Part shown: piece after piece, positions 17 through 15,956 of the stretch
Layout: every line of letters begins with the position of its first letter
How positions within the stretch are numbered: position 1 is the stretch's first letter
Assembly: GCF_003201475.1 (NCBI RefSeq)
Contig: NZ_QJJK01000013.1
Coordinates: 62,001-126,000, forward strand
DNA: 64,000 bases
Direction: 5' to 3'
Origin: Chelatococcus asaccharovorans
GTDB taxonomy: Bacteria; Pseudomonadota; Alphaproteobacteria; Rhizobiales; Beijerinckiaceae
Made by a program: the position numbers and the translations under genes
Notes under the pieces: model-generated
What the model saw: the letters and a program-made list of their open reading frames with translations, nothing else
Told to the model about the DNA's origin: nothing
Databases searched by the model: none

Positions 17-52
17 ATGCACTTTTCTGTCATAATAAGATAATATGTTCAA
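17..52. promoter_or_regulatory. Putative SorC-family operator upstream of the regulator gene
   Basis: The stretch begins ATGCAC and ends TGTTCA, with 29 bases between the starts of the two half-sites. Aligned without gaps to 11291-11326, upstream of the ABC importer operon, about 24 of 36 positions are identical, including both outer half-sites. SorC-family repressors bind long AT-rich dyads as tetramers, so this is a plausible autoregulatory site. Its role is inferred from the match and the position only. Confidence 0.5.
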
Positions 53-245
53 ATATCATCAGCGACGAATCCCGTCGGGTTGCGCCGCCTGTGGCATTCC
101 CATCACGTTGTTCGATGCGGTAAAGGAATGCCGGCGGAGGGAAAAGCCGGAGTTTCGCACAACGACGAAGCAGAGCGAGCCGGTCGCGTGGCGGATCGGA
201 ACGGCTCCCACGACATCAGCCGCAACCGGCATGAACGGAGAAACG

Positions 246-1226
246 ATGGCCAGGAACGCGCGCCCCAAGTCCACGAAATTCCAGGCCGACCAGAACGAGC
301 TCAAGCTCAAGGCGGCCTGGCTCTACTTCGTCGAGGGCCACACGCAGGAACAGGTTGCCGAACAGATCGGCATCAGCCGGATCAAGGCCCTGCGCCTGCT
401 GGCGGCAGCGCGGGAAGACGGCACGGTCAACATCTCGATCAATTCCCAGGCGGAATCGATTTTCGCGCTGCAACGCCAGCTCGAGCAGCATCTCAAATTG
501 ACCGAGGCGATCGTGGCGCCGGCCAGCGCCCAGAGCGAAATCAGCGTCGCTGCCGTCGTCGGCCACGCGACCGGGCAGTATATCTCGCAGCAGCTCTTCC
601 CCGGCGCCACGATCGGCGTCGGCTGGGGCGCGACCCTCAAGGTCTGCATGCAGGCGCTGACCTGGCGCGAAATCGACGACATGACCGTCGTTTCCCTGCT
701 CGGCGGGCTGACAAACGCCACCGCTGACAATCCATCGGCCGTGTCATGGCGGCTGGCCGACTTCTACAAGACGAAGCTCTATCAGATCGCCGCGCCGGTT
801 TTCGTGCCGAGTTCCGATCTCGCCCGGCAGCTCTGGGACATCGCGGGGCTACGGGAGTTGCGGGAACGGGCGCGGACCATCGACATCGCGCTGATCAGCG
901 TGGGCAGCCTCGACGAGGAAGCGTCGATCTTCCGCCGCGGCATTCTCGACAAGTCCGAATTGAAGAGCCTCGCCGCGGCGGGAGCGGTCGGCGACGTGCT
1001 CTGTCATTTCGTCGATGCCGAAGGGCGGCTTGTCGATCACCCCATCAATCGGCGCGTGATGGCGATTGGTCCGCGCGACCTGCACAGTGTCGGCAACGTT
1101 GTGATCTCATCCGGCGGAGAACGGAAGGCCCGGGCGATCCGGGCCGGAATCGCGGCCACCAAGGCCTCTGTCCTGATCACCGATACATCAGCGGCGAAAG
1201 CGTTGTTGGAGCTCCCGCCGCTGTAG
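246..1226 (+). CDS. SorC/DeoR-family sugar-binding transcriptional regulator
   Basis: This is a cytoplasmic DNA-binding regulator that in its family responds to a phosphorylated sugar. The 326-residue protein has a helix-turn-helix at about residues 23-57 (EQVAEQIGISRIKALRLL) followed by a SorC sugar-binding domain (HATGQYISQQL, GVGWGATLK, ISVGSLDEEASIFRRG, DVLCHFVDAEG). The open frame extends upstream to 45, but the family length and a GGAG at 237-240 favour the ATG at 246; the ATG at 231 is a second choice. It converges on the E2 gene of the minus-strand operon. A 36-bp dyad at 17-52 resembles one upstream of that operon, so it probably represses both itself and the importer/dehydrogenase genes. 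Family assignment is firm; the inducer is unknown. Confidence 0.9.
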   Translation: MARNARPKSTKFQADQNELKLKAAWLYFVEGHTQEQVAEQIGISRIKALRLLAAAREDGTVNISINSQAESIFALQRQLEQHLKLTEAIVAPASAQSEISVAAVVGHATGQYISQQLFPGATIGVGWGATLKVCMQALTWREIDDMTVVSLLGGLTNATADNPSAVSWRLADFYKTKLYQIAAPVFVPSSDLARQLWDIAGLRELRERARTIDIALISVGSLDEEASIFRRGILDKSELKSLAAAGAVGDVLCHFVDAEGRLVDHPINRRVMAIGPRDLHSVGNVVISSGGERKARAIRAGIAATKASVLITDTSAAKALLELPPL

Positions 1227-1265
1227 AGCGAACTGATTCTGCGCGGGGAGCACCGGGGTCATTCG

Positions 1266-1290
1266 GGGTCGGGCCGACAGGCCCGAACCC
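1266..1290. terminator. Hairpin between convergent genes, possible bidirectional terminator
   Basis: The arms GGGTCGGGCC and GGCCCGAACCC pair with a single bulge around a GACA loop. It lies between the regulator stop at 1226 and the E2 stop at 1333, which converge. There is no T-run, so if it terminates it is not a textbook intrinsic terminator. Confidence 0.4.
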
Positions 1291-1332
1291 GGTTCCCGCG
1301 CGAACGGAGCTGCCCGACAGCAAGCCCCGCTC

Positions 1333-2694
1333 TCACACCAGCATCGTCATGGGCTTTTCGATATAGCCCTTGAAGGCCCGCAGCAGCTCGGCGCCCAGCG
1401 CGCCATCGACAGCGCGATGATCGGTCGAGAGGGTCACCGACATCACGGTGGCGATGGCGAGCTGGCCCGCCTTGACCACCGGGCGCGGCTCGCCTGCGCC
1501 GACCGCAAGGATCGTCGCATGCGGCGGGTTCACGATCGCGGCGAAATCCTTCACCCCGAACATCCCGAGATTCGAGACCGCCGTCGTGCCGCCCTGATAT
1601 TCCTCGGGCTTCAGCTTCTTCGCCTTGGCGCGGGCGGCGAGGTCCTTCATCGCATTGGAAATCTCAGACAGCGTCTTGCCGCAGGCACCGCGCACGATCG
1701 GCGTGATCAGCCCGCCGGGGATTGAGACGGCGACGCCGACATCCGCCTGCTTGTGCTTCAGCATGGCGCCCTCGGTCCAGGACACATTCGCATCCGGAAC
1801 CGCCTTCAGCGCCAAAGCGAGCGCCTTGATCACCATGTCGTTGACGGAGAGCTTGTAGGCCGGCTGGCCATCTTTCTCGGGCGCGTCCGCGTTCAGCTCC
1901 GCGCGCAGTTTCAGGAGCGCATCGAGTTCGCAATCCACCGTGACGTAGAAATGCGGGATGGTCTGCTTGGCCTCCGTCAGGCGGCGCGCGATCGTCATGC
2001 GCATGCTGTCATGCGGGATCTCCTCGTAGGAGCCCGCGGCGAACAGCCTCTTGATCTGGTCGTCGGACGCAGGAGCCGCCAGCGGAGTCACCGGAACCGG
2101 AGTGGAAATGGCGGGCGCGGCCGCTGTAGCTGGTTGAGCCGCCGTCACAGGCACCTCGGGCTGGACCGCACTCCCCTGCTTCGCCGCGACCACATCCTTC
2201 TCGACCACCCGGCCACGCGGCCCCGATCCCTGGATCGACAACAGGTCGAGGCCCGCCTCCCGCGCGAGACGACGCGCCAGCGGCGAGGCGCGGACAGCCG
2301 CACCGTCTGGGCTTCCTGTGCAGGATGACGGACCGGCGGCCGGGGAAGCCGCGCAAGCCTGCGCGCCGGCGTCTAGCGCGGACGCCGCAGCCTTGGCCGT
2401 TTCGGCGGGCGGCGTGGCCTGCGCAACGGCGGTTGCGGCATCGGCCTCAGCCTCCCCCGCCGCGTAGATCCAGGCGACCGGCGCACCCACCGGGATGTCG
2501 ACGCCGACCTTGCCGGTGACATTGCGCAGCACGCCGCTTGCCGGCGCCTCGATCTCCATCGCCGCCTTGTCCGTCTCGATCTCGAAGAGCACGTCGCCCT
2601 GGGCGACGGTTGCGCCTTCCTCGAAGAACCAGGACGAGATCCGGCCGGTCGCCATATCCATGTCGACCTTGGGAAGAATGACCTCAACCGGCAT
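1333..2694 (-). CDS. Dihydrolipoamide acyltransferase (E2) of an acetoin/pyruvate dehydrogenase-type complex
   Basis: E2 carries acyl groups on a lipoyl arm from the TPP-dependent E1 to CoA in the cytoplasm. The 453 residues show an N-terminal lipoyl domain (about 1-77, lysine 43 in ETDKAAMEIEA), an Ala/Pro-rich linker, a peripheral-subunit-binding domain (about 135-172, ASPLARRLAREAGLDL), a second Ala/Pro linker and a catalytic domain from about 220 with the active-site DHRAVDG near residue 425. The E1beta stop and this ATG are separated by two bases, so they are co-translated. It is the last gene of the minus-strand operon. No dihydrolipoamide dehydrogenase (E3) is nearby, so a housekeeping E3 is presumably borrowed. 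The substrate specificity lies with E1 and is not known. Confidence 0.93.
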   Translation of the reverse strand: MPVEVILPKVDMDMATGRISSWFFEEGATVAQGDVLFEIETDKAAMEIEAPASGVLRNVTGKVGVDIPVGAPVAWIYAAGEAEADAATAVAQATPPAETAKAAASALDAGAQACAASPAAGPSSCTGSPDGAAVRASPLARRLAREAGLDLLSIQGSGPRGRVVEKDVVAAKQGSAVQPEVPVTAAQPATAAAPAISTPVPVTPLAAPASDDQIKRLFAAGSYEEIPHDSMRMTIARRLTEAKQTIPHFYVTVDCELDALLKLRAELNADAPEKDGQPAYKLSVNDMVIKALALALKAVPDANVSWTEGAMLKHKQADVGVAVSIPGGLITPIVRGACGKTLSEISNAMKDLAARAKAKKLKPEEYQGGTTAVSNLGMFGVKDFAAIVNPPHATILAVGAGEPRPVVKAGQLAIATVMSVTLSTDHRAVDGALGAELLRAFKGYIEKPMTMLV

Positions 2695-2696
2695 GG

Positions 2697-3695
2697 TCAG
2701 CGCACTCCGCTCACGAGGTCGCGGGCAGCGGCAACGATATCCGGCACCTGCGGCACGGCAGCCTTCTCGAGTTCGGGATTGTAGGGGATCGGCGTTTCCG
2801 ACCCGCCCAGACGCACGATCGGCGCGTCGAGATAGTCGAAGGCTTCGCTCTCCGCGATCGTCGCGCTGATTTCCGCGCCGATGCCGAGGGTCTTCACGCC
2901 CTCATAGACGCAGAGAAGCCGCGAGGTCTTCTTGACGCTCGCGATGATGGTCTCGCGGTCGAGCGGCCGGATGCTGCGCAGGTCGACGACCTCGATGTCG
3001 ATGCCCTCGCCGGCCAGCGTCTCCGCCGCCTCCAGCGCCTTGTGCACCATGATCGACGTGGCGACGATGGTGAGGTCCTTGCCGTCGCGCCGGATGGCGG
3101 CCTTGCCGATCGGCACGGTGTAATGGCCCTCGGGGACCGGCCCCTTCATCTTGTAGAGGAGCTTGTGCTCGAAGATCATCACCGGGTCGGGATCGGCCAC
3201 GGCGGCGAGCAGCATGCCCTTCACGTCATGCGGCGTCGATGGCTGGATCACCTTCAGCCCCGGCACATGGCCGAGCCACGCCTCGAGGCTCTGGCTGTGC
3301 TGCGCGGCGGCGCCCGTGCCGGAGCCGGCCGGGAAGCGCATGACCAGCGGGACCGAGACGGCCCCGCCGAGCATGTAGCGCATCTTCGCCGCCTGGTTGA
3401 CGATCTGCTCCATGGCGAGCGTGGCGAAATCCGAGAACTGGAACTCGAAGATTGGCCTGAGACCCGTTACGGCCGCGCCTACGGCGACGCCGGCGCCGCC
3501 GAGCTCGGAGATCGGCGTGTCGATCACCCGCTCAGGGCCGAAACGCTCGATCAGATCGCCGGTGACCTGGAAGGCGCCGCCGTAAACGCCGATATCCTCA
3601 CCCATGAGGATGACGCGCTCATCGGCCTCCAGGGCGATGGCCATCGCTTCCTGGATCGCCTGCGAATAGCTGAGTTCCCTGACCGCGGTGTCCAT
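2697..3695 (-). CDS. E1 beta subunit of an acetoin/pyruvate dehydrogenase-type complex
   Basis: This is the beta chain (332 residues, family-typical) of the thiamine-diphosphate E1 component that decarboxylates or cleaves a 2-oxo compound and passes the acyl group to lipoyl-E2. It shows the pyrimidine-binding transketolase domain in the first half ([57 protein letters not shown]) and a transketolase C-terminal domain ([36 protein letters not shown]). Its ATG overlaps the E1alpha stop by one base (TGATG), so the subunits are co-translated. Acetoin dehydrogenase AcoB and pyruvate dehydrogenase PdhB belong to the same family; the sequence alone does not separate them. The genes next to it argue against a housekeeping PDH. 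Confidence 0.93.
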
Positions 3696-4726
3696 CAGTT
3701 CTGTTCCGTGTAAACGTAGTCGGCAAGATCGGCGACGACGGGGGCCGGGCTTTCCTTGGCGAAGTCGATGCCCGCGGCGATCTCCGCGCGGACCGCCTCG
3801 CGGACCGCTTCGAGCTCCTCGGCGGTGGCGATGCCGAAGGCGGACAACTCAGCCTCGTAGCGCTCGATCGGGTCGCGGTTGGCCATCCACTCGTCAATCT
3901 CGTCCTTGGTGCGGTAGCGGTTGCGGTCGCTCTTGGAGTGGCCGCGATAGCGATAGGTCTTGCACTCGATCAGGCTCGGGCCCTCGCCGCGGCGCGCGCG
4001 CTCGACCGCCTCGTGGGAGGCCTGCGCGACGGCCGAGAGATCGTTGCCGTCGACGATGACGCCGGGCATGGCGTAGGCCGCCGCCCGGTCGGCGATGTTG
4101 GGCACCGCGGTCGACCGCTCGGTCGAGGTCGACATGCCGTATTTGTTGTTCTCGCAGACGAAGACGACCGGCAGCTTCCAGACCGCGGCCATGTTGAGGG
4201 CCTCGTGGAAGGCGCCCTCGTTGTTGGCGCCGTCGCCGAAGAAGGAGACCACCACCTTGCCCGTGTTGAGGCGCTTGGCGGTCAGTGCGGCGCCGACGGC
4301 GATCGGGATGCCGCCGCCGACGATGCCGTTCGCGCCGAGATTACCCGTCGAGACATCGGCGATATGCATGGAGCCGCCGCGCCCGCCGCAATAGCCGGTG
4401 GTCTTGCCGAAGAACTCGGCGAACATCCGCTTCACCTCGGCGCCCTTGGCGATGCAGTGGCCGTGGCCGCGATGGGTGGAGGTGATCTGGTCCTCGCGCG
4501 TCAGCGGCAGGCAGATGCCGACGGCGCTCGCCTCCTGGCCGATCGAGAGATGCATGGTGCCGTGGATGAGCCCGCGCATGTAGCTCTCCTCGGCCCCCTC
4601 CTCGAACTTGCGGATCAGATGCATGCGGCGGAGCGCGCCCAGCAGCTCCTCGCGCGGGTAGTGCCGGTAAAGGAACGGCAGGTTCTTGGTGTCGCGCGTG
4701 TCGGCAGCGAGGGACGGAGCGGCCAT
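3695..4726 (-). CDS. E1 alpha subunit of an acetoin/pyruvate dehydrogenase-type complex
   Basis: This is the alpha chain of the heterotetrameric thiamine-diphosphate E1. The 343 residues carry the diphosphate/Mg binding motif [17 protein letters not shown] (164-180) ending at N193-N194 in CENNKYGMS, plus the conserved [12 protein letters not shown] and the loop [16 protein letters not shown]. Length and the RGHSKSD loop are like acetoin dehydrogenase AcoA and bacterial PdhA. It is followed directly by E1beta and E2 and preceded (3 bases) by the DXR-like oxidoreductase. Acetoin-type E1 cleaves a hydroxyketone with a CH3-CO-CHOH unit. That unit also occurs in 1-deoxyxylulose 5-phosphate, which matters for the pathway proposed in the findings. 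Confidence 0.93.
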
Positions 4727-4729
4727 GAT

Positions 4730-6055
4730 TCAGGCTCCCTTACCGTGGATGAGCGCGTCCTGCCTCGCCCTGAGCGCGGCGATCTTCGAGCCGGGCATCA
4801 CGGCGGCATTGGCGTAGGTGATGAGGTCGCCCTTGCGGATCGGCGCGGTCACGGTGCCGCCCTGCAAGAGGCCGCAGGGGATACCGCCGGCCTCGCGCGC
4901 CTCGACGGCCGTGAGGATCCAGGCGCGGTAGCAGTATTCGCCGATGGCATCGAGCCGATCACCGGGCTTCATGTCCTTCTTGGCGACGGCGCAGACCTCG
5001 GCGACCGGCCGGGCGAGCGGCACCATGTCCGGCTTGCCGTAGAGAACCACGCGCGCGCAGGTCAGCGGCACCTCGAGCGAGGTGAGGTGGTACGGCCGAT
5101 GGAAGGTGAAATAGGGTCCCTTCCCCATCTTCAGGTCTTCCATGCGCTCCGAGATGCGCGGATGCGACATGTCGGCGACCACGAACACGCCCGGCGCCAC
5201 GCCCTTGCCGATCGAATAGTCGACGACGCCGACCCGCGACAGCACACCGCCGTCCTTCTCAGGGATGAGGGTGGAGGCGAGCTGGTCCAGCGTCGCGGCA
5301 GGGCCGTGCATGCCCGGTTTGTCCGGAACAAGGCCCGTCGCGTTGGCGATCGCGGCCATCTCGACCATGGTCTTGGAGCCGTCGACGAACTCGACCAGCA
5401 TGCGCACGTTCATGTGCCGGCGCGCCGCTTCCTCGGCATAGTCGTCCGGGATGGCGTCGATATTGAGCGGATTGTTCTTGCCCTTGCCGGCCGCCACGAT
5501 GGGATGGCCCATCGCCGAGACGAACTCGATCAGCTCCATGCAGGAGGACGGCTCGTCGCCGGCCCCGAGCGAATAGGTGACGCCGAGGCGGTCGGCCTCG
5601 CTCTTGAGATAGGCGCCGATGGTGACGTCGGCCTCGACATTCATCATGACGAGATGCTTGCCGTGCTCCATGGCCGCCAGGCCGATCTCGGCACCGACGG
5701 CGGGCACGCCCGTGGCGTCGATGACGACATCGATGAGGCCGCTGGACAGGACGAGCTCCGCATCGCCGGTCACGGCGATCTTGCCGTCCTCCATCGCCGC
5801 ATTGAGATCCGACAGGCGTCCCACCTCGCGATGGTGCCCCTCCTCGCGATAGGCGATGTCGACCGCCTTGCGCGCGGCGGAGAGGTTGAGATCGCAGATC
5901 GCGCCGATGCTGATGCCGGGCATGTGCGCGACGCGGGTGACGATGTCCGTCCCCATCTCGCCGGAGCCTATGAGACCTATGCGGACGGGACGGCCGGTGT
6001 CGGCCCTCGCCAGAAGGTCACGCGCCAGTCCGGTCGGCGCGACATTGATTCCCAT
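4730..6055 (-). CDS. DXR-like / homoserine-dehydrogenase-like NAD(P)-dependent oxidoreductase with SAF domain
   Basis: The 441-residue protein begins with a Rossmann fold (RIGLIGSGEMGTDIV, residues 25-39) and a homoserine-dehydrogenase-like middle (VVIDATGVPAVGAEIGL, HGKHLVMMNVEADVTIG, YSLGAGDEPSSCMELIEF). It ends with a SAF-type domain (about 345-425, KDMKPGDRLDAIGEYCYRAW, PIRKGDLITYANA). This architecture is that of the family containing Brucella DRL, a second type of 1-deoxyxylulose-5-phosphate reductoisomerase; many family members have unknown substrates. The frame is open up to 6334 but that part overlaps the phosphopentomutase gene; the ATG near 6055 has a strong GGAGG and gives the family length. 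It lies in the operon between phosphopentomutase and E1alpha. Family is fairly sure; reaction is inferred. Confidence 0.8.
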   Translation of the reverse strand: MGINVAPTGLARDLLARADTGRPVRIGLIGSGEMGTDIVTRVAHMPGISIGAICDLNLSAARKAVDIAYREEGHHREVGRLSDLNAAMEDGKIAVTGDAELVLSSGLIDVVIDATGVPAVGAEIGLAAMEHGKHLVMMNVEADVTIGAYLKSEADRLGVTYSLGAGDEPSSCMELIEFVSAMGHPIVAAGKGKNNPLNIDAIPDDYAEEAARRHMNVRMLVEFVDGSKTMVEMAAIANATGLVPDKPGMHGPAATLDQLASTLIPEKDGGVLSRVGVVDYSIGKGVAPGVFVVADMSHPRISERMEDLKMGKGPYFTFHRPYHLTSLEVPLTCARVVLYGKPDMVPLARPVAEVCAVAKKDMKPGDRLDAIGEYCYRAWILTAVEAREAGGIPCGLLQGGTVTAPIRKGDLITYANAAVMPGSKIAALRARQDALIHGKGA

Positions 6056-6152
6056 CGAAGTCCTCCATGCATGCGTCCCGTCGCGGCGGATCGAAACGGG
6101 CCTGCATTGTCGTTTGTCCAAATCCGAATGGTCCCCGGCGGGCGGCGCCCGC

Positions 6153-7385
6153 TCAGGCGCGCACGATGTCGTCCAGGAAGCTCGTCCCGATCTCCGGCGC
6201 GTCCACCCCGAAGACCTCGGCGACGGTTGCCGCGATGTCCGAGAGGCTATCGCGCATGAAGATGCCCTTCGGCACGATGCCCTGCGTCCAGACCAGCAGC
6301 GGCGTGAATTCGCGCGTGTGCTTGTCGTGGCCAATGGTGGGATCGTTGCCGTGGTCGCCGGTGATGATCAGGAGATCGCGCGGGCCCATCATCGCCATCA
6401 TCCGGCCGATGCCTTCGTCTGCGAGCCGCAGGCAGGCGGCGTAGCGCTCCGCGCTCTCGTCATGGCCGGCGAGATCGGTCTCCTGGATGTTGATGGCGAT
6501 GAGACCCGAGCGGACCCGCGCCAGCGCGGCATAGGTCGCATCGAGCACCGGCTGCGTCAGAACATGCGGTTCCTTGTGGGCGCCCTCGCAGGTGATGACG
6601 TCGGCAACCTTGCCGATGAGTTCGACCTCGTAGCCCGCCTTCTTGAGGATCGTCGGGATCTGCACATCGGGCTTCGTACCGCGGGTGAGATGCCGGACGA
6701 CGTAGTTGCTGGTGTAGAGGCCGAGCGCGACATTGTTGACGCCGCACTGGCCGGTGGGCCGCCGCTCGGTGCAGCGCCGGATGTCGGCTGCCTTGAAGCC
6801 GTAGCCACCCATCGCCACCACGCGGCGCACGCGCGCCACTGAACGCAGGATCTCACCGACCTTGACGATCTCCTCATAGGGCATGTCGTCGATGGAGCCG
6901 ACGCAGTGATAGGTCTGCAGCGGATCGCTTTCGAGATTGTCGCCGCAGATCATCCGGCCGTCGACGAAGAGCGCGGCCAGGCCCTCACCGGCCGGCTCGA
7001 CGTGATGGCCCGCCCGGCGCAGCGCCGCGGCGACATCGTCACGCACGACCTCGAACAATTCCTCCGGGACATCCGGCACGCGCGAGCCCATGATGACCTG
7101 GTGCCCGAGATAGGTATCCGCGCCCTTGTAGCCGAGGTTGAAGATGCCGTGGACAGCGATCGGGGCCGCCTCGACCCGCAGGCCTGATTGCGGCGCGACG
7201 GTGCCGAGCCCGAGACGCTCGAGATTGGGCAGCGACAGCCCACCGGCGTCGCGCACCACATGTTTCAACGTGTTCGAGCCGACGTCGTTAGGCCGGACGA
7301 GATGGACGTCGGGCAGCGCGCCGATCCCGAGCGCGTCGAGAACGAGGATGATGACCCGGTCGAAGGGAGGCTTTGCGTCGGTCAT
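6153..7385 (-). CDS. Divergent phosphopentomutase (DeoB-like)
   Basis: Phosphopentomutases of the alkaline-phosphatase fold interconvert (deoxy)ribose 1- and 5-phosphates using two Mn ions. The 410 residues show the first metal Asp (VIILVLDALGIGALPD, D17), the phospho-acceptor Thr in GADTYLGHQ (T91), and the later metal ligands in ETDLAGHDES and TGDHGNDPT...HDKHTREFTPLLV. The usual DSFG.G at the first site is DALG.G and the canonical VDFDxLYGHR is replaced by IQETDLAGHD. It is therefore an outlying branch that may act on another phosphosugar. It sits between the ATPase gene (15-base gap) and the oxidoreductase (97-base gap) in an operon with no nucleoside phosphorylase or deoC, unlike ordinary deo loci. 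Confidence 0.85.
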   Translation of the reverse strand: MTDAKPPFDRVIILVLDALGIGALPDVHLVRPNDVGSNTLKHVVRDAGGLSLPNLERLGLGTVAPQSGLRVEAAPIAVHGIFNLGYKGADTYLGHQVIMGSRVPDVPEELFEVVRDDVAAALRRAGHHVEPAGEGLAALFVDGRMICGDNLESDPLQTYHCVGSIDDMPYEEIVKVGEILRSVARVRRVVAMGGYGFKAADIRRCTERRPTGQCGVNNVALGLYTSNYVVRHLTRGTKPDVQIPTILKKAGYEVELIGKVADVITCEGAHKEPHVLTQPVLDATYAALARVRSGLIAINIQETDLAGHDESAERYAACLRLADEGIGRMMAMMGPRDLLIITGDHGNDPTIGHDKHTREFTPLLVWTQGIVPKGIFMRDSLSDIAATVAEVFGVDAPEIGTSFLDDIVRA

Positions 7386-7400
7386 GGTTGTCCCTACCCG

Positions 7401-8576
7401 TCAGACAGCGGCTTCGGTGCGCGGCAACAGGTGAATGGTCTGCTCCTTGAAGCCGATGCCGACGCGGTCGCCCTCGCGGATCTTCCACGCGTCCCCGAGC
7501 GCCGACCGCACCGAGGTGACCAGGGTGTCGCCGACGCGGATGCCGTATTCGGTGAGATCGCCGAGAAACTCGATGTCCTCGACGATACCCGGCAATCCGC
7601 TATCCGGGCCGCCGAGCGTCACGGCCTCCGGTCGCAGCAGCGCCAGCACGTCACGCGGCAGGCCGGTCGCGGGCGACGGGGCGCGAAGCCGCGTGCCGAG
7701 CATCTCGATCTCCACCTGACCATTCGCCTCGTCGAGGATGGTCGCGGGAAGTGCGTTCACCTTGCCGACGAACTGCGCGACGAAGAGCGTCGCCGGCCGG
7801 GCATAGATCTCTTCCGGAGCGCCGACCTGCTCGATGCGGCCGCTCTTCATCACGGCGATCCGGTCCGACAGGCTCATAGCCTCGTCCTGATCATGGGTGA
7901 CGAACAGCGCCGTCGTGCCGAGACGGCGCTGCAGACGGCGCAGCTCCGAGCGCACCTGCACGCGCAGCTTAGCGTCGAGATTGGACAAAGGCTCGTCGAA
8001 GAGCAGCAGGTCGGGATGCATGACCAGGGCGCGCGCCACGGCGACGCGCTGCTGCTGGCCGCCCGAGAGCTGGCCCGGCATGCGCGGCCCGTAATCCTCG
8101 AGGCCGACCGCCGCCAGCGCCGACGCGACCTCGCTGCGGACGGTTGCCTCCGCCACGCGGCGCAGCCGGAGCGAATAGGCGACATTCTCGAACACGCTCA
8201 TATGCGGGAAGAGCGCATAGTTCTGGAAGACGAGGCCGATCTTGCGATGATGCGCCGGCAACCGGGCGATCGAGAGGGAATCGAGCAGGATCTCGCCGGA
8301 CTCGAAGTCCTCGAGTCCGGCCAGGGTGCGCAGGACCGTTGTCTTCCCGCAACCGGAGGGGCCGAGCAGGGTCACGAACTCGCCGGGCGCGAGGTCGAGA
8401 TTGAAGTCGGTGACCACCGGCAGCCGGCGGCCGCCCCCCAGCGCATAGGACTTGTCGAGATGGCGGATGGAGAGCGCCTTGGCGAGCGTCTGACCCTTCG
8501 CGGGCGCTGAGCTGGCCGTCGGCACAGGGCTCTCGGCGGGTGCGTGGACGGGGGCCTTGGCGAGTGTCTGTTGCAT
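7401..8576 (-). CDS. ABC importer ATPase, FbpC/AfuC/PotA type
   Basis: This is the cytoplasmic ATPase of the adjacent importer. The 391 residues contain Walker A GPSGCGKTT (72-80), Q-loop QNYALFPHMSVFENV, signature LSGGQQQRVAVARAL, Walker B LLLFDEPLSNLD, the H-loop and a C-terminal TOBE-like domain (from about 275). The open frame extends to 8609, but GAGGGA eight bases before the ATG at 8576 decides the start; this ATG lies only 8 bases beyond the permease stop. The first 30 residues are an Ala/Pro/Thr-rich leader not needed by the family. Fe(III), phosphonate, hexose-phosphate (AfuC) and polyamine importers share this ATPase type, so the substrate must be read from the binding protein and neighbours. 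Confidence 0.92.
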   Translation of the reverse strand: MQQTLAKAPVHAPAESPVPTASSAPAKGQTLAKALSIRHLDKSYALGGGRRLPVVTDFNLDLAPGEFVTLLGPSGCGKTTVLRTLAGLEDFESGEILLDSLSIARLPAHHRKIGLVFQNYALFPHMSVFENVAYSLRLRRVAEATVRSEVASALAAVGLEDYGPRMPGQLSGGQQQRVAVARALVMHPDLLLFDEPLSNLDAKLRVQVRSELRRLQRRLGTTALFVTHDQDEAMSLSDRIAVMKSGRIEQVGAPEEIYARPATLFVAQFVGKVNALPATILDEANGQVEIEMLGTRLRAPSPATGLPRDVLALLRPEAVTLGGPDSGLPGIVEDIEFLGDLTEYGIRVGDTLVTSVRSALGDAWKIREGDRVGIGFKEQTIHLLPRTEAAV

Positions 8577-8586
8577 GGGCTGTCCC

Positions 8587-10251
8587 TCAGCGGGCTTCGC
8601 GCCAGTCACCGCCGAGCAGCCGCGGCACGCCGTGGATCACCGCCAGCACCATCACGACGACGATGACGCTGAGAGCGGCCGCCTCGCCCACGTCGCCGCG
8701 ATCCATCTGCGAAAGGATGGTCGGCGTGACGAGGGACCAGTGCGGCGACACCACGAAGATGACGGCGCTCAGCGTCGTGACGCTGCGCGTGAACGAAAAG
8801 ATCATTCCCGCCAGCAGAGCCGGCTGGACGATGGGCAGGAGGATGCGCCACAGCGTCTGGCCCGAGGTCGCCCCCATGGTGGTGGAGGCCTCGTCCAGCG
8901 TGCGGTTGATCTGGTTGAGTGCGGCCACCCCCGAGCGGATGCCGTAGGGCAGCGAGCGGACGACGAAGGCGGCGACGATGATCGCGGCTGTGCCCGTCAG
9001 GATGAGCGGCGGACCGTTGAAGGCCAGGCCGAAGGCCAGACCGATCACCGTGCCGGGAATGGCGAGCGGCAGGTTCGCCGTGAAGTCGAGCAGGGACTGG
9101 CCGCGGGCGCGGGTGCGCGCAACGATCCAGGCAATGAGCAGGCCGAGCATCACCGAGATGAAGGAGGCGACCAGCCCCAGCAGGAGCGTGTCGACGAGCG
9201 CGCCGCGGGATTTCGTCAGCGCCGCGACGAGATGCTTGGTGGTGAAGCTGTAGTTGATGCCGAAGAGCTGCGTGAAGGCCCCCGCGAGGATCGTCCCGTA
9301 TTGCAGGCAGATGACGAGCGTGATGAACCCGACGAAGATCAGGCCTGCAGCGCGCACGCCGCCATGACGCACTTCCCGATGACGGCTCGAGCCCTTGGCG
9401 CCAACGGAGGCGAAGGACATCCTTGCGCTCAGCGCCTTGTGCGCGAAGAACATCATGAGCGCAGGAATCAGCAGCAGCACGGCGAGCGCCGCCCCTTTCG
9501 GGATGTCGTACATGCCGATGATCGTCTGGTAGATCTGCGAGGACAGCACCGGGAAATCGCCACCGAGCAGCAACGGATTGCCGAGATCGGCAAAGGAATA
9601 GCTGAACATCAGGAGCATCGAGCCGGCGAGGCCGGGCACCAGCAATGGCAGACTGACCGTGCGCAGCACCCGCCAGCCGTTCGCCCCCATGGTCGAGGCC
9701 GCCTCTTCGAGCGATGCGTCGAGGCCCTTGAACAGGTTCAGCATCATGAGATAGGCGAAGGGGAAATAGGAAATGAGCTGTGCGACCACCAGGCCGGTGA
9801 AGCCGTAGAGTCCTGTCGTCTGCAGCCCGAACAGGTCATGGGTGATCAGTCCGCGGCGGCCGTAGAGCATGATAAGCGCCAGCGCCATCAGGATCGGCGG
9901 CGAGATCGTCGGAAGCAGCGCGAAGAAGTGCCAGACCCGTTTGCCCGGGATCGCCACCCGGGCGATCACATAGGCATAGAGTGTCGCGAGCACCGTGCCG
10001 AGAATGGCGACCGTCGCGCCCAGGATGAGCGTGTTCCAGAACACCTTGCGGTTATAGGGGTCCGCGACGGTCTCTGACAAAAGGGCCAGGGACAGCCGCC
10101 CATCCGCGGTGAACGCCCGCATCAAGAGGTCGATCATGGGATAGGCGGTGAAGATCAGGACGAAGGCCGCTGCGACGGGATAGACCCAGTAGAGGGTCCA
10201 GTCCCGGCGCTGCGCTCGCTCCGTCATACCCGCAGGCGCAACGGCACTCAT
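8587..10251 (-). CDS. ABC importer permease with two fused transmembrane domains (FbpB/AfuB type)
   Basis: This inner-membrane protein of about 554 residues has two copies of the binding-protein-dependent transport domain, roughly 12 membrane segments. Each copy has an EAA-type loop (EEAASTMGANGWRVLRTVSLP and DEASTTMGATSGQTLWRILLP, split here by function). Fused permeases of this kind occur in Fe(III)/AfuB-type importers. The frame is open to 10320, but the ATG at 10251 lies just after the binding-protein stop at 10256 and gives a normal N terminus before the first membrane helix. It is co-transcribed with its binding protein and ATPase. Confidence 0.9.
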   Translation of the reverse strand: MSAVAPAGMTERAQRRDWTLYWVYPVAAAFVLIFTAYPMIDLLMRAFTADGRLSLALLSETVADPYNRKVFWNTLILGATVAILGTVLATLYAYVIARVAIPGKRVWHFFALLPTISPPILMALALIMLYGRRGLITHDLFGLQTTGLYGFTGLVVAQLISYFPFAYLMMLNLFKGLDASLEEAASTMGANGWRVLRTVSLPLLVPGLAGSMLLMFSYSFADLGNPLLLGGDFPVLSSQIYQTIIGMYDIPKGAALAVLLLIPALMMFFAHKALSARMSFASVGAKGSSRHREVRHGGVRAAGLIFVGFITLVICLQYGTILAGAFTQLFGINYSFTTKHLVAALTKSRGALVDTLLLGLVASFISVMLGLLIAWIVARTRARGQSLLDFTANLPLAIPGTVIGLAFGLAFNGPPLILTGTAAIIVAAFVVRSLPYGIRSGVAALNQINRTLDEASTTMGATSGQTLWRILLPIVQPALLAGMIFSFTRSVTTLSAVIFVVSPHWSLVTPTILSQMDRGDVGEAAALSVIVVVMVLAVIHGVPRLLGGDWREAR

Positions 10252-10255
10252 CGGC

Positions 10256-11278
10256 TCACTTTCGTCCGGCGAGGATGTCGTTCTGGAAACGCGCGATGAT
10301 CGCCTTGCGCGTGTCTGCACTTCCGGCCCAGTTGAAGTCGAAATCGATCAGCTTGGCGTTGACGAAGGGCTTCACGAGATCGCTGACCTTGGCATTCTTG
10401 TTGGTCGGCATGTCGAAATACTCCGAGGCCGCCAGCGTTTCCTGCGAGGCAGGTGTCACCGCCCAGTCGAGGAACTCCTTGGCCGCGTCGGGCTCGGGCG
10501 CGTCCTTGAGCATGACGGCGCAGAAGAGATCATAACCCGTACCTTCGCGCGGCAGGCTCATCTCCATAGGGAAGCCCTTGTGGATGCTGCCCAGAATATC
10601 ATGCGCGAACAGGATGCCGAGCCCGACTTCGCCGCGGCCGACGAGCTGGGTCGGACCGATGCCGGAGCGCGTATACTGCGAAACATTGGCGTCGAAGCGC
10701 TTGATGTAATCCCAGCCCTTCTCCTCGCCCATGAGCTGCAGGACCGTCGCCAGGAACATGTAGCCCGTGCCTGAGGTGGCGGGGCTGCCGATGCAGATCT
10801 GCCCGGCGAACTCGGGCTTGGTGAGATCCTCCCAGCTGGTCGGCGCCTTGAGGCCCTTTTCCTTCAGGAAGGTCTGGTTTGAAGCGAAGCCGATGAAGTC
10901 GACGTCGATGCCGGTCCAGTAGCCTTCGGGATCGACGTATTTCGCCGGGATGTCGGCGACGCCCTTCGGCTTGTAGGGCTGCAGCAGCCCCTCGCTCTTC
11001 AGCGTCATCATCGAGGGCAGGCCGATGCCGTAGAGCACGCTGGCCTGCGGGCGGGCGCGCTCGGCGCGGATGCGGTTCACCGCCTCGCCGGCCGAGAGGC
11101 GCAGGAAGGTGGTGGAAACCCCGGAGCTTTTCTGGAAGGCCTCGACCAGCGCGGCGCAGGTTGGCTCCGGCGGCCCCATGTAGGCCGTGAGCTTCTTCGC
11201 CTGCGCCTGCGCGCCAAAGGATGGCAGCAGGGACGCGCCCACAAGGCTGCCTGCGAATTGTCGGCGATTCAGTCTCAT
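10256..11278 (-). CDS. Periplasmic substrate-binding protein of AfuA/FbpA-like family, Tat signal
   Basis: This 340-residue periplasmic receptor feeds the adjacent permease and ATPase. The N terminus MRLNRRQFAGSLVGASLLP is a twin-arginine-type signal ending near AQAQA (about residue 27). The mature part is a type-2 periplasmic binding fold of the Fe(III)/phosphonate/hexose-phosphate group (GVSTTFLRLSAGEAVNRIRAE, GVGPT-like GIGPTQLVGRGEVGLGILFA). I do not see the adjacent Tyr-Tyr pair that binds iron in FbpA; the corresponding place reads SQYTRSGIG. An organic phosphate ligand, as in AfuA, is therefore more likely than iron. A good GGAGG precedes the ATG. It is the first gene of the operon and is preceded by the candidate operator at 11291-11326. 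Confidence 0.88.
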   Translation of the reverse strand: MRLNRRQFAGSLVGASLLPSFGAQAQAKKLTAYMGPPEPTCAALVEAFQKSSGVSTTFLRLSAGEAVNRIRAERARPQASVLYGIGLPSMMTLKSEGLLQPYKPKGVADIPAKYVDPEGYWTGIDVDFIGFASNQTFLKEKGLKAPTSWEDLTKPEFAGQICIGSPATSGTGYMFLATVLQLMGEEKGWDYIKRFDANVSQYTRSGIGPTQLVGRGEVGLGILFAHDILGSIHKGFPMEMSLPREGTGYDLFCAVMLKDAPEPDAAKEFLDWAVTPASQETLAASEYFDMPTNKNAKVSDLVKPFVNAKLIDFDFNWAGSADTRKAIIARFQNDILAGRK

Positions 11279-11290
11279 CGGCGCTCCTCC

Positions 11291-11341
11291 ATGAACATTT
11301 TTATCCTAAATGGAATAATTGTTCATATACTACCTTGTCAA
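11291..11341 (-). promoter_or_regulatory. Promoter and SorC-type operator of the importer/dehydrogenase operon
   Basis: On the minus strand a perfect TTGACA lies at 11341-11336, with a 17-base spacer and a weak TTATTC -10 at 11318-11313. The dyad ATGAACA (11291-11297) / TGTTCAT (11320-11326) overlaps the spacer and the region just after the -10. The same dyad, same spacing and about 24 of 36 bases recur at 17-52 before the SorC gene. The position fits repression by occlusion. Confidence 0.5.
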
Positions 11342-11573: not shown

Positions 11574-12503
11574 TCAGGCGCGCGCGGCGGCTCGCAGATC
11601 CAGCCCCGGAACCGGCACCTCCGCTTTCAGGATGGAGCCCGTCTCGGATTCGGTGATGAAGAGCGTGCGCCGGTCAGGCCCGCCATAGGCGAGATTGGTG
11701 GTGAGCCGCCCGCGGCAGGAATTGATCCGATAGGTCGGGATGCCGAGACCATCGAACATCCAGACGATGCCCATGCGGTTATGGCAGACGGCGAGCCCCC
11801 CTTCCACATCCACCGCGAGGCCGTCCGGGCCGCTGAACCCGCCGGAAAAGGACTGGTAGACACCGACCTTGTGCGTCGAGCCATCGGCGAGCAGCGGGCA
11901 GCGCCAGACCTGCTGGGCGAAGGTGACCGCGACGAATAATTGGTCTTCTGCCGGATTGAGCGCGATGCCGTTGGGGCTCGGCACATTGTCGAGCAGGCAA
12001 TCGAGCCGCCCGTCGCGTCGCCGGCGAAAGACGCGCCCCGTCGGATCCTGCAGGCCCGTATTGCCCTGGTCGGTGAAGTAGAGGTCGCCGTTGCGGGCAA
12101 AGACGAGATCGTTCGGCCCCTTGAAGCCCGGCTCCAGCCGGTCCCGCCCGAGGAAGGTGCTGACGCGGCCGCTGGCGGGGTCGAGATGCATGATGCCGTG
12201 CATGCGGTCGGCGATATAGATGTCACCGTCGCGATGCACCTTGAGGCCATTGGGTGCGCCGTCGTATTCCGCCGCGATGACGACCTCACCCGCGGGATTG
12301 ACGCGCAGGATGCGGCCGAAGGGCGTGTCCACCACATAGAGATTGCCGTCAGCGTCGAAACTCGGACCCTCCAGAAAGGAATGCGTCTCACCGAGCCCGG
12401 AAGCTGTGAGCCACGGCGCGCTGCGCGGCTTCAGGCCGAGTTGGGCGACGACATCGACGAAGAGCGTGGTCGCGATCGGCGACGGCGGCGGATAGAGGCT
12501 CAT
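11574..12503 (-). CDS. SMP-30/gluconolactonase family protein
   Basis: The family consists of six-bladed beta-propeller Ca-dependent lactonases that open sugar-acid lactones. The 309 residues show repeated propeller strands (SFLEGPSFDADGNLYVVD, GPNDLVFARNGDLYFTDQG, SPNGIALNPAEDQLFVAV, GPDGLAVDVEGGLAVCH) with the usual Glu, Asn and Asp metal positions. There is no signal peptide, so it is cytoplasmic. It starts 4 bases after the stop of the sugar permease gene and is the last gene of that operon, which suggests that it hydrolyses a lactone derived from the imported sugar. The 295 bases between this gene's stop and the start codon at 11278 hold only that promoter. Family is firm, substrate unknown. 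Confidence 0.88.
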   Translation of the reverse strand: MSLYPPPSPIATTLFVDVVAQLGLKPRSAPWLTASGLGETHSFLEGPSFDADGNLYVVDTPFGRILRVNPAGEVVIAAEYDGAPNGLKVHRDGDIYIADRMHGIMHLDPASGRVSTFLGRDRLEPGFKGPNDLVFARNGDLYFTDQGNTGLQDPTGRVFRRRRDGRLDCLLDNVPSPNGIALNPAEDQLFVAVTFAQQVWRCPLLADGSTHKVGVYQSFSGGFSGPDGLAVDVEGGLAVCHNRMGIVWMFDGLGIPTYRINSCRGRLTTNLAYGGPDRRTLFITESETGSILKAEVPVPGLDLRAAARA

Positions 12504-12507
12504 GACG

Positions 12508-13371
12508 TCATCCCTTGACGCTGCCGGCGGCCAGGCCCGTGGCCATGTAGCGGCGCGCCAGGAAATAGAGGATTGCCGGCGGCAATGAATAGAGTACGCC
12601 CGAGACCATCAGGAGCGGCCAGGGCGCGGAATCATCGCTCAGGAACTGCCCGAGCATCACCGGCAAGGTGATGCGATCCTCGTCCGACAGGAGGAGGAAG
12701 GCATAGAGATATTCGTTCCAGGACAGCATCACCGCGAAGGCGCCGACCGCGACGATGGTCGGCACCATCAAGGGAAGGTAGACGAGGCGGAAGATCTGCC
12801 AGGGGCTGGCGCCGTCGATTTCCGCCGCCTCGTCGAGTTCACGCGGCACGCTGCCGGCGTTCTGCTGCAACACCCATATCGCATAGGGCGTGGCGAAGGT
12901 GGCGATGGTGATGATCAGCGCCCAGCGGCTGCCGAGCAGGCCGTAGGACCCCATCACCTGATAGAAGGGAATGGCGAGGAACGTCGCCGGCACGAGATAG
13001 GTGATGAGGGCCATATGCGATGCGAAGCCGGCAAAGCGCGGCCTGAGCCGGGTGATCGCGAAACTCGCGGTCAGGCTCAGGGCAAAGACGAAGACGCAGC
13101 TCGTGAAGGCGACGAGCACGCTGTTGCCGAGCTGCAGCCAGAAGCGCGACAGGTAGTAATTGTCCTGGGTCAGCACGATCCTATAGTTGTCGAGCGTCGG
13201 CGCATCGGGCCAGAGCTTGCCCGCAAAACCCTCCCCCACCGGCGTCAGTGACAGGATCACCATGTGGTAGAGCGGCAAGAGCGTCCACAGCAGGATGAGC
13301 GCGCCGAGGACGATCAGTCCGGCCTGCCGGAGGAGCGGCTTGAAGGCGATCTCATGCATGGGCGATCTCAT
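12508..13371 (-). CDS. Sugar ABC importer permease, MalG/CUT1 type
   Basis: This 287-residue inner-membrane protein has six predicted membrane helices and the EAA loop ELDEAAEIDGASPWQIFRLV that docks the ATPase. It pairs with the MalF-type permease encoded just upstream. At the gene junction the sequence GATGCATGAGATC(A/G)CCC occurs twice (about 13349-13386), and the second copy supplies possible alternative ATGs at 13371 and 13359. The start at 13371 lacks a clear Shine-Dalgarno sequence, so translation may be coupled to the upstream gene. The locus has no ATPase gene. Confidence 0.9.
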   Translation of the reverse strand: MRSPMHEIAFKPLLRQAGLIVLGALILLWTLLPLYHMVILSLTPVGEGFAGKLWPDAPTLDNYRIVLTQDNYYLSRFWLQLGNSVLVAFTSCVFVFALSLTASFAITRLRPRFAGFASHMALITYLVPATFLAIPFYQVMGSYGLLGSRWALIITIATFATPYAIWVLQQNAGSVPRELDEAAEIDGASPWQIFRLVYLPLMVPTIVAVGAFAVMLSWNEYLYAFLLLSDEDRITLPVMLGQFLSDDSAPWPLLMVSGVLYSLPPAILYFLARRYMATGLAAGSVKG

Positions 13372-13383
13372 TTAAGGGTGATC

Positions 13384-14286
13384 TCATGCATCGGCGTTCC
13401 TGCGCAGGCGGCGTGTGAGCACGATCACCAGCGGCACGAGGATCGGCAGGGCCGACATCAGGGTGACGATGCCCGCCTGGAAATCCGCATGGCGGAAGGC
13501 GTAGCGGATGCCCATGGTGGCGAGCGTATTGGTGCGCTCCATGGGCCCACCGCCGGTGAGCAGATAGATGCTGTTGAAATCGCCCAGCGACCAGATCGTC
13601 GTCAGCATCGTGCTGGTCAGGAAGACATTGGCGATGGCCGGAAAGGTGACGTAGCGAAACTGCTGGACGCTTCCCGCGCCGTCGATACGCGCGGATTCAT
13701 ACAGGTCTTTCGGGATACCGAGCCGCGCCGCTACCAGGATCATGGTCCAGAACGGCAGATACTTCCAGATATGCACCGCGATGATCGACGCCATCCCGTA
13801 GCTCGGGTTGGTCAGCCAGGCGGGACCATCGACACCGAAGACCTGAAACAAGATGTTGTTGATCATCCCCCATTCCGAATTCAGCATCCAGCGAATGGAC
13901 AGGATCGAGGGGATATGCGGCACCGCCCAGGGCAGAATGAACAGCGCGGCGATGACCCGGATGGCGCGCCCCGGCAGCACGAAGAAGCTCGATAGCCCGA
14001 GCGCCAGCAGCATCTTCAGCATCACGCCGATGGCGATGAAGAGAAACGTGTTCCAGAGCGTGCGCGCATAGATCGGATCGGCGAATACGCGGGCGTAGGC
14101 TGAACGATCGGTCGCAAGAAAGAGCGCGTAGAGAATGGGATAGCTGACGAAAGCCACGAACATCGCCGCGAACGGCATCAGAAAGAAGAGCGCCCATTTC
14201 TCCTTGAAACTGAGAAGCGGTCGCCCGCTTCCCAGCCACTGACGCGATGAATTGGCTTGCGGCAAGGCCGCGCCGCTCGCAATCAT
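13384..14286 (-). CDS. Sugar ABC importer permease, MalF/CUT1 type
   Basis: This 300-residue inner-membrane protein has six predicted helices and the EAA loop LYESARIDGAGSVQQFRYVTFP. It is the partner of the MalG-type permease and lies 3 bases after the stop of the binding-protein gene. Family members import mono- or oligosaccharides or polyols. Substrate cannot be assigned from sequence. Confidence 0.9.
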   Translation of the reverse strand: MIASGAALPQANSSRQWLGSGRPLLSFKEKWALFFLMPFAAMFVAFVSYPILYALFLATDRSAYARVFADPIYARTLWNTFLFIAIGVMLKMLLALGLSSFFVLPGRAIRVIAALFILPWAVPHIPSILSIRWMLNSEWGMINNILFQVFGVDGPAWLTNPSYGMASIIAVHIWKYLPFWTMILVAARLGIPKDLYESARIDGAGSVQQFRYVTFPAIANVFLTSTMLTTIWSLGDFNSIYLLTGGGPMERTNTLATMGIRYAFRHADFQAGIVTLMSALPILVPLVIVLTRRLRRNADA

Positions 14287-14289
14287 CCC

Positions 14290-15624: not shown

Positions 15625-15956
15625 GTCCCTGATCCCCTCGTGCTGATTATGGGCGCGACGAGACTCCACGAGCGGCCTCGCCATGGCCTGCCATTCTCAC
15701 GGGCAGCCTCGTCATGCTAGGATGACTTGTCTATTTGTCAAACATAAATGCCGCCCCATGGAATCGCTTTCTGCGCCTTTCCCAAGAGGCTTCACATGAG
15801 AAAACGCCGCCTCCCCTATCAGACAAGTCAACAACTCGAATGATCCGGATCGGCCTGGGCGGCAACCACCTGACGACGAGCCGGCCCCGCCTGACGAGGC
15901 GACGCGGGTGCATCAGCCATCAGGATGTGTAGAACTAGCTCCATGGGAGGATCACC
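15625..15956. promoter_or_regulatory. Divergent intergenic region with a separated inverted pair
   Basis: No gene is visible here. TGACTTGTCT (15723-15732) and its exact reverse complement AGACAAGTCA (15821-15830) are 88 bases apart, each near one divergent gene. Such sites resemble GntR-type half operators (TTGTC/GACAA), but no GntR gene is adjacent. This could be coordinate control of the importer operon and the monooxygenase. Confidence 0.3.

Follow-up and report, generated by a model that had tools for sequence, protein, structure and literature searches.

A conserved DXR-II-E1-E2 gene module in Chelatococcus asaccharovorans with a proposed role in the breakdown of 2-C-methylerythritol

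Why would a type II 1-deoxyxylulose 5-phosphate (DXP) reductoisomerase (DXR-II, also DXR-like or DRL), an enzyme described from isoprenoid synthesis, be encoded alongside an ATP-binding cassette (ABC) importer, a sugar-sensing regulator and an E1/E2 complex of the 2-oxoacid dehydrogenase type? This question is raised by an operon of Chelatococcus asaccharovorans (genome of 7.25 Mb), which lies at the start of a 64,000-nucleotide (nt) stretch, the window (positions 62,001 to 126,000 of contig NZ_QJJK01000013.1, our contig C13). Genes were called by combining open reading frame (ORF) calling with Pfam and NCBIfam searches, which gave the following features in window coordinates.

46-51, no strand: candidate operator half-site TGTTCA upstream of the SorC gene, kept in both Bosea relatives.
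231-1226, plus strand: SorC/DeoR-type sugar-binding regulator (PF04198, 182 bits on 249-1226; Bosea orthologues 89-90%).
1333-2694, minus strand: E2 dihydrolipoyl acyltransferase (PF00364 lipoyl, PF02817 E3-binding and PF00198 catalytic domains; TIGR01349, 466 bits, cut-off 445).
2697-3695, minus strand: E1-beta of a putatively specialised 2-oxoacid-dehydrogenase-type complex (PF02779/PF02780; DRL-linked clade).
3695-4726, minus strand: E1-alpha, binding thiamine diphosphate (ThDP) (PF00676, 325 bits; TIGR03182, 385.2 bits, slightly below the cut-off of 393.85).
4730-6055, minus strand: DXR-II (DRL), proposed to oxidise methylerythritol 4-phosphate (MEP) to DXP (PF21135, 228 bits; 3upl/3upy, 700 bits).
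6153-7385, minus strand: YhfW-type phosphopentomutase-like phosphotransferase (NF009049, 437 bits, cut-off 254).
7401-8576 (ORF open from 8609), minus strand: AfuC-like ATPase of the ABC importer (PF00005, TOBE_2).
8587-10251, minus strand: AfuB-like permease of the importer, with two membrane domains in one chain (two PF00528 stretches).
10256-11278, minus strand: AfuA/P5PA-like binding protein of the importer (nearest solved structures 8x1a, 4r72 (AfuA) and 6wce (P5PA)).
11292-11325, no strand: candidate operator dyad TGAACA-N22-TGTTCA, preceded by a TTGACA box and located ahead of the binding-protein gene, kept in both Bosea relatives.

The minus-strand genes form one tight run, transcribed from the binding protein through the fused permease, ATPase, mutase, DRL, E1-alpha and E1-beta to E2. 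They are separated by 2-4 nt or overlap by 1 nt, apart from larger gaps between mutase and DRL (97 nt), ATPase and mutase (15 nt) and permease and ATPase (10 nt). The initial annotation of this DNA had counted six to seven such genes; the tight run stands, but the number is eight. Its convergent SorC regulator is also borne out, since the plus-strand SorC gene and the E2 gene face each other with their ends.

We propose that this widespread module, of which the window holds a Bosea-type version, breaks down 2-C-methylerythritol (a branched C5 polyol of plants and a tetrol of isoprene aerosol) or the corresponding phosphates through a reversal of the initial MEP-pathway steps. An AfuABC-like importer would take up a phosphorylated methylerythritol-type compound, 2-C-methylerythritol (phosphate) would be converted to MEP, and DXR-II would oxidise MEP to DXP. 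A dedicated ThDP-dependent E1 would then cleave DXP between C2 and C3 in the manner of acetoin dehydrogenase, releasing glyceraldehyde 3-phosphate, and the acetyl unit would pass through the lipoyl-E2 to coenzyme A (CoA), giving acetyl-CoA; this transfer could pull the DXR step, for which reversibility is recorded (PMC13001223). We consider it very probable that the module serves the catabolism of a polyol or polyol phosphate. For the more specific reading, in which the DRL runs from MEP to DXP and E1/E2 cleaves DXP, we estimate a probability of roughly 0.6, while the carriage of methylerythritol phosphate by the Bosea-type importer is a tentative assignment, at somewhat worse than even odds.

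The identity of the oxidoreductase agrees with its earlier designation as a DXR-like member of the Brucella DRL family. It aligns without gaps over 435 residues with Brucella DXR-II (3upl/3upy) and keeps all ten positions checked, namely K191, K193, T229, R320, E174, F178, Y322 and the clade-typical G121, H250 and V351; this residue set, clade-typical positions included, was taken from section 6 of PMC3847144. In the DRL tree (a quick tree, like that of E1-beta below, supported only by the Shimodaira-Hasegawa-like approximate likelihood-ratio test, SH-aLRT), the window copy belongs to a 13-row set in which every member is E1-linked (SH-aLRT 99). The Brucella enzyme has been described as biosynthetic, whereas the window DRL sits in an operon with E1/E2, an importer and SorC and presumably converts MEP to DXP.

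We compared the neighbourhoods of DRL relatives in genome contigs, using the best 80 of the 568 found. Two Bosea genomes, the nearest named carriers of the operon, have the whole gene order at 64-94% identity per gene, so the gene set is not a product of chance, and its content and conservation are firm. E1-alpha follows the DRL within 700 nt in 69/80 loci, and the order DRL-E1-alpha-E1-beta-E2 is kept in Hyphomicrobiales, Rhodobacterales and Rhodospirillales. The same linkage appears in plasmid records with an E1-beta at least 64% identical: in 32/34 the DRL precedes E1-beta on the same strand by 1027-1178 nt, whereas in Priestia it lies ~7.3 kb downstream of E1-beta and in Rhizobium SSA_523 none is close by. 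The full gene set was rejected as a conserved unit: the mutase and this importer join the DRL in only two of the 80 loci, both Bosea. The co-occurrence of mutase, oxidoreductase and E1 that had been suggested as a check is thus seen for the last two, but the mutase drops out.

The genes around the core vary. Of the E1-linked loci, 46 have 9 kb or more of sequence on each side; in these, a glucitol-type phosphotransferase system (PTS-Gut) was found in 26, a weakly Afu-like ABC importer in seven and no module in five; a PfkB kinase occurred in eight (with ABC in six, alone in one, with the mutase and Afu set in one). Polyol importers and phosphorylators around the DRL-E1-E2 core appear to be interchangeable, the alternatives being a glucitol-type PTS, an ABC importer with a PfkB kinase, or an RbtT/DalT-type carrier with an FGGY kinase. 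For example, Rhizobium L51/94 has the order GutM-PTS-Gut-PtsP-SorC-DRL-E1-E2 with thiamine genes beside it, Sinorhizobium meliloti Rm41 has ABC-kinase-SorC-DRL-E1-E2-Lpd-LipA, and plasmid pNGR234b of S. fredii NGR234, among the strains listed with DXR-II in PMC3847144, has ABC-kinase-SorC-DRL-E1-E2-Lpd. PTS-Gut is present in the Pseudoroseomonas and Terrarubrum loci, Lpd and a class II fructose-bisphosphate aldolase in that of R. sophoriradicis, and Aminobacter SS-2016 carries the core with a polyamine-type ABC importer in place of the others. In Phyllobacterium T1293 a DRL without E1 lies behind a ribose-type ABC importer. Five Bacillota loci were examined of the eight among the matches listed. 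In Listeria monocytogenes, L. innocua, Ligilactobacillus (with fructose-6-phosphate aldolase and transketolase in addition) and Enterococcus raffinosus the DRL has PTS-Gut and a SorC-type gene as neighbours; on the Priestia plasmid its companions are an RbtT/DalT-family carrier (534 bits against 375) and an FGGY kinase, and E1, E2 and E3 lie close by.

Known glucitol and pentitol operons share this import-phosphorylation-oxidation logic, and many of the relatives use GutMCBA itself; those operons oxidise with sorbitol-phosphate dehydrogenase, whereas the window module would oxidise through DXR-II and cleave through E1/E2. As a separate observation, a conserved helical protein of ~210 aa, HypA (L052:16821-17459, minus strand; like places in 28/28 loci checked), is encoded beside DRL-E1-E2 genes with a PTS or kinase; searches of Pfam, NCBIfam and PADLOC found no match for it, and no PDB structure shared its fold at E up to 0.001.

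The E1/E2 genes encode the domain set of a pyruvate dehydrogenase (PDH) complex of the alpha2beta2 type (E1-alpha, E1-beta and lipoyl-E2), which also supplies their best profile and PDB matches. The window E1-beta scores above the subfamily model PRK09212 but below the equivalog PRK11892 and lies outside the PDH-type clade. The E1-beta sequences of 30 linked rows, including the window, form one clade (SH-aLRT 99) apart from 19 housekeeping PDH-type rows, with Priestia and one long-branched unlinked row just outside at weaker support. The PDH-type E1-beta of the window genome itself is among the 19 and 49-50% identical to the linked copy, and at 40 alignment positions each of the two sets is nearly invariant, but for a different residue. 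A search of 61 genomes of the order gave three with an E1-beta of 83% identity or more (the window genome, G455 and G475), each with a DRL ahead of E1-alpha, and the next-best match is at 53%. A class-wide co-occurrence test based on E1-beta (E up to 1e-130) reached 1/385 genomes, the window's own, and was too sparse to use. The simplest reading of these E1 results, and of the high E1-beta conservation in three families with a diverged DRL noted below, is that this E1 has a dedicated substrate, which we infer to be DXP.

Acetoin dehydrogenase cleaves a CH3-CO-CHOH unit to acetyl-lipoyl and an aldehyde. The cleavage proposed here is the same chemistry, and the E2 of three relatives is annotated as acetoin dehydrogenase E2, but the aldehyde would be glyceraldehyde 3-phosphate and the window genes lack acetoin profile support, the acetoin E2 model PRK14875 falling far below its cut-off. 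The profiles give the acetoin type of the initial annotation no support over a PDH-like one. The DXP route that it had sketched fares better apart from that label, and draws on the conserved DRL-E1-alpha-E1-beta-E2 order, the polyol modules, the distinct E1 clade and the presence of DXR-II beside DXR-I described below. The window operon has no E3 gene, a further difference from a complete PDH complex; Lpd, LipA or thiamine genes adjoin some of the related loci. In Rhizobium L51/94 a thiamine synthesis operon (L101 16817-21323) follows the DRL-E1-E2 genes, which fits because E1 needs ThDP.

Whether the DRL is needed for isoprenoids can be judged from the enzymes encoded elsewhere in the same genomes. 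We took 49 of the 80 loci, picked for genus spread, to whole-genome searches, which covered 48 genomes. DXR-I is present in 13, and was detected in three Ensifer/Sinorhizobium genomes related to NGR234 and Rm41; ten genomes combine DXR-I with a single DRL, the E1-linked one, which should be unneeded for isoprenoids there. The other 35 have no DXR-I match, and nine of them have a single DRL. In five of these nine (G026, G029, G031, G039 and G043) the sole DRL is E1-linked and accompanied by ispG, and dxs was matched at E up to 1e-80 in four (47 of the 48 genomes overall). In these five genomes the DRL must be a working DXR, unless the assemblies are incomplete. Because of the ten and the five genomes taken together, the DRL looks like a true DXP reductoisomerase that is used catabolically.

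These counts bear on the suggestion that the operon serves another polyol or sugar phosphate, with the DRL acting as a plain dehydrogenase on a different 1-deoxy or branched polyol phosphate and E1/E2 cleaving that ketose or pyruvate derived from it. None of the varying importers and kinases (glucitol PTS, ABC with PfkB, RbtT/DalT-type carrier, FGGY kinase) has a known specificity for methylerythritol, and in three families (loci L139, L183 and L186) the DRL has drifted to 52-57% identity to the window copy, far more than E1-beta at 83-84%. We nevertheless consider this unlikely, since the ten retained DXR-II positions and the five genomes with the E1-linked DRL as the only DXR candidate beside ispG lead one to expect turnover of DXP and MEP.

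They bear equally on a biosynthetic operon, in which the DRL would make MEP to boost isoprenoid, thiamine or B6 synthesis and E1 would be either an alternative source of DXP or a PDH paralogue supplying acetyl-CoA. The window genome, with two DRLs, dxs and ispG, gave no DXR-I match; mutated PDH E1 can yield DXP in Escherichia coli (PMC3424233); thiamine genes flank one locus; and the Mesorhizobium genome with an E1-linked DRL, G031 (L059, Mesorhizobium sp. ES1-1), has ispG, no DXR-I match and no dxs match at E up to 1e-80, meaning either that the assembly is incomplete or that E1 is the source of DXP in this genome. On the other side, dxs is present in the window genome and in 47 of the 48 others, DXR-I accompanies the DRL in the 13 genomes mentioned, SorC regulators, kinases and importers of the PTS or ABC type accompany the core in many loci, and carbon from DXP would be lost to acetyl-CoA through an E2 that has a lipoyl domain. 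Taken together, these points leave a biosynthetic operon quite improbable. The second DRL of the window genome (G000:C8:423154; L098 7573-8979) is 61% identical to the first and adjoins a divergent Fbp/Afu-like ABC importer and an extracytoplasmic function (ECF) sigma factor; as no DXR-I was found, it is perhaps the synthesis copy.

Several observations weigh against catabolism of methylerythritol through DXP. The linkage has exceptions in both directions: a DRL occurs without E1 in 11/80 loci (Phyllobacterium, Aminobacter, Oryzicola and one other Rhizobiales) and no E1 was found beside it in the four Bacillota PTS cases (two Listeria, Ligilactobacillus and Enterococcus), and E1/E2 genes occur with no DRL nearby in Rhizobium SSA_523 (L181 7300-12500; E1-beta 77%), where they lie between hypA/hypB and SorC, and in Clostridioides difficile plasmids (L180 9011-13940; SorC-E1-alpha-E1-beta-E2-Lpd, E1-beta 59%), where the 21 kb covered contain no DRL. 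By profile, E1 and E2 are PDH-like, and the published rescue of DXS loss worked in the direction of synthesis and needed mutant E. coli PDH, the wild-type enzyme giving none (PMC3424233). In four of the 48 genomes (G005, G032, G037 and G048) DXR-I is missing and the sole DRL is unlinked, so this DRL group also serves synthesis, as presumably does one of the two DRLs in the window genome, given the missing DXR-I match. Finally, the mutase family is found in 1/385 alphaproteobacterial genomes, the window's own, and among the 80 best DRL loci the Afu importer and mutase are seen together in no locus outside Bosea.

What, then, might the importer carry? The binding protein shares 38% identity with AfuA and resembles AfuABC (PMC4546632) and P5PA (PMC8427247) in keeping the phosphate-site residues S169, G170 and T171 and the sugar-site residues H226 and D227. 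Five other AfuA residues are replaced (E229 by D, Q269 by D, Y103 by D, S37 by A and T60 by G), which makes a different ligand likely. Of the sugar contacts that define AfuA, H205, D206 and E229 (PMC4546632), two have kept counterparts but the third is D250, so we class the protein as AfuA-like and not as AfuA; the AfuABC-like importer of the initial annotation holds in that sense. A phosphate ester with another head group would fit such a site. E. coli can be engineered to export methylerythritol cyclodiphosphate (PMC3487848), and phosphates released from the MEP pathway are a plausible, though speculative, feedstock.

The phosphopentomutase reading is upheld for the neighbouring enzyme, which exceeds the NF009049 cut-off, stays below that of the deoB model TIGR01696 (141 bits, cut-off 341) and keeps counterparts of DeoB D13, T85, D327, H328 and H339, residues that we take to be catalytic. 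Five plasmid-collection records match the family at E up to 1e-30; the one examined, in Cetobacterium, is a yhf cluster, and this context was set aside since it gave no clue to the substrate. Importer relatives in Cetobacterium and Pantoea were likewise set aside, with no DRL or E1 among their annotated neighbours. Mutase function and phosphate-ester import are the least certain parts of the proposed pathway, in view of the changed AfuA contact and of a PfkB kinase and a SurE-type gene just outside the window. Alternatively, the importer might carry 2-aminoethylphosphonate, iron, pyridoxal phosphate or a hexose phosphate, a cargo with no relation to the enzymes, and the mutase would serve that compound: the best NCBIfam models for the three importer parts are the phosphonate-type PhnS2, PhnT2 and PhnU2, all below cut-off, the ligand of the nearest solved binding proteins, where known, is a hexose phosphate or pyridoxal phosphate, and the Cetobacterium relative of the mutase sits in its yhf cluster. 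We doubt this, given gaps of at most 97 nt throughout the run, the common operator-like sites and the same order in two Bosea genomes.

The effector domain places the regulator in the SorC/DeoR family, the DeoR and LsrR equivalog models remaining below cut-off; its start is at 231 or 249 (the ORF is also open from 45), and the Bosea relatives begin at the equivalent of 231. Upstream of the binding-protein gene, TGAACA at 11325-11320, directly after the TTGACA box, is matched by TGTTCA at 11297-11292, and the same arrangement upstream of the binding-protein and SorC genes recurs in both Bosea relatives; as sequence, the matched operators first noted here are real. In the 350 bp upstream of the DRL, 70 E1-linked loci contain 91 TGAACA/TGTTCA words against 9.9 expected (61/70 loci with a word), compared with 3 against 1.3 expected in 13 loci without E1 (2/13 loci); three loci were too short and were left out. 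Among 120 words of the same letters this pair is the most frequent, and the runner-up overlaps it. Since the loci are related and the expectation comes from simple mononucleotide shuffles, the counts give no probability, but the enrichment supports a shared operator type at E1-linked as against unlinked DRL promoters. SorC would sense a phosphorylated intermediate and control the operon through these sites.

A catabolic role would bear on a published puzzle. How DXR-II arose in strains that already had DXR-I is raised as an open question in PMC3847144, which also describes functional DXR-II in Finegoldia, where the other MEP genes and the mevalonate (MVA) genes are absent, and in the MVA user Chloroflexus, as well as second functional copies in M. 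loti and O. anthropi. A 2026 review still gives no defining pattern for DXR-II (PMC13001223), and DxrII is treated as a synthesis enzyme in PMC10663253, the main text of which lacks the stem 'catabol'. Among the matches listed in a search of the open literature, which did not include the original DRL papers, no published account of methylerythritol breakdown was found. If true, a catabolic role would explain DXR-II beside DXR-I, might do so in Finegoldia and in Chloroflexus, and would give a function to DXR-II genes now called redundant. It would also mean a new ThDP/E2 complex activity and a further route to acetyl-CoA, starting from a branched C5 polyol, and would caution against taking every DXR-II for an isoprenoid enzyme. 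The broadest version of the idea, that DXR-II is catabolic in origin and mainly so, in a widespread bacterial pathway that consumes 2-C-methylerythritol and its phosphates through a reversed MEP-pathway entry and a dedicated E1/E2 'DXP dehydrogenase' complex, with synthesis in Mesorhizobium, the Brucella group and similar bacteria a later takeover after loss of DXR-I, seems to us to fall a little short of an even bet.

A few neighbouring genes were also recorded. The C. difficile plasmid locus (L180) has a PTS and a class II aldolase in addition. Just left of the window and divergent from SorC are a SurE-family gene (L142 17217-17972) and a PfkB kinase gene (L142 16092-17183), the kinase being 54% identical to that next to the S. 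meliloti relative. The next operon upstream within the window (11574-15684), judged by eye from the ORF list, appears to encode a separate sugar ABC importer and an SMP-30-type lactonase.

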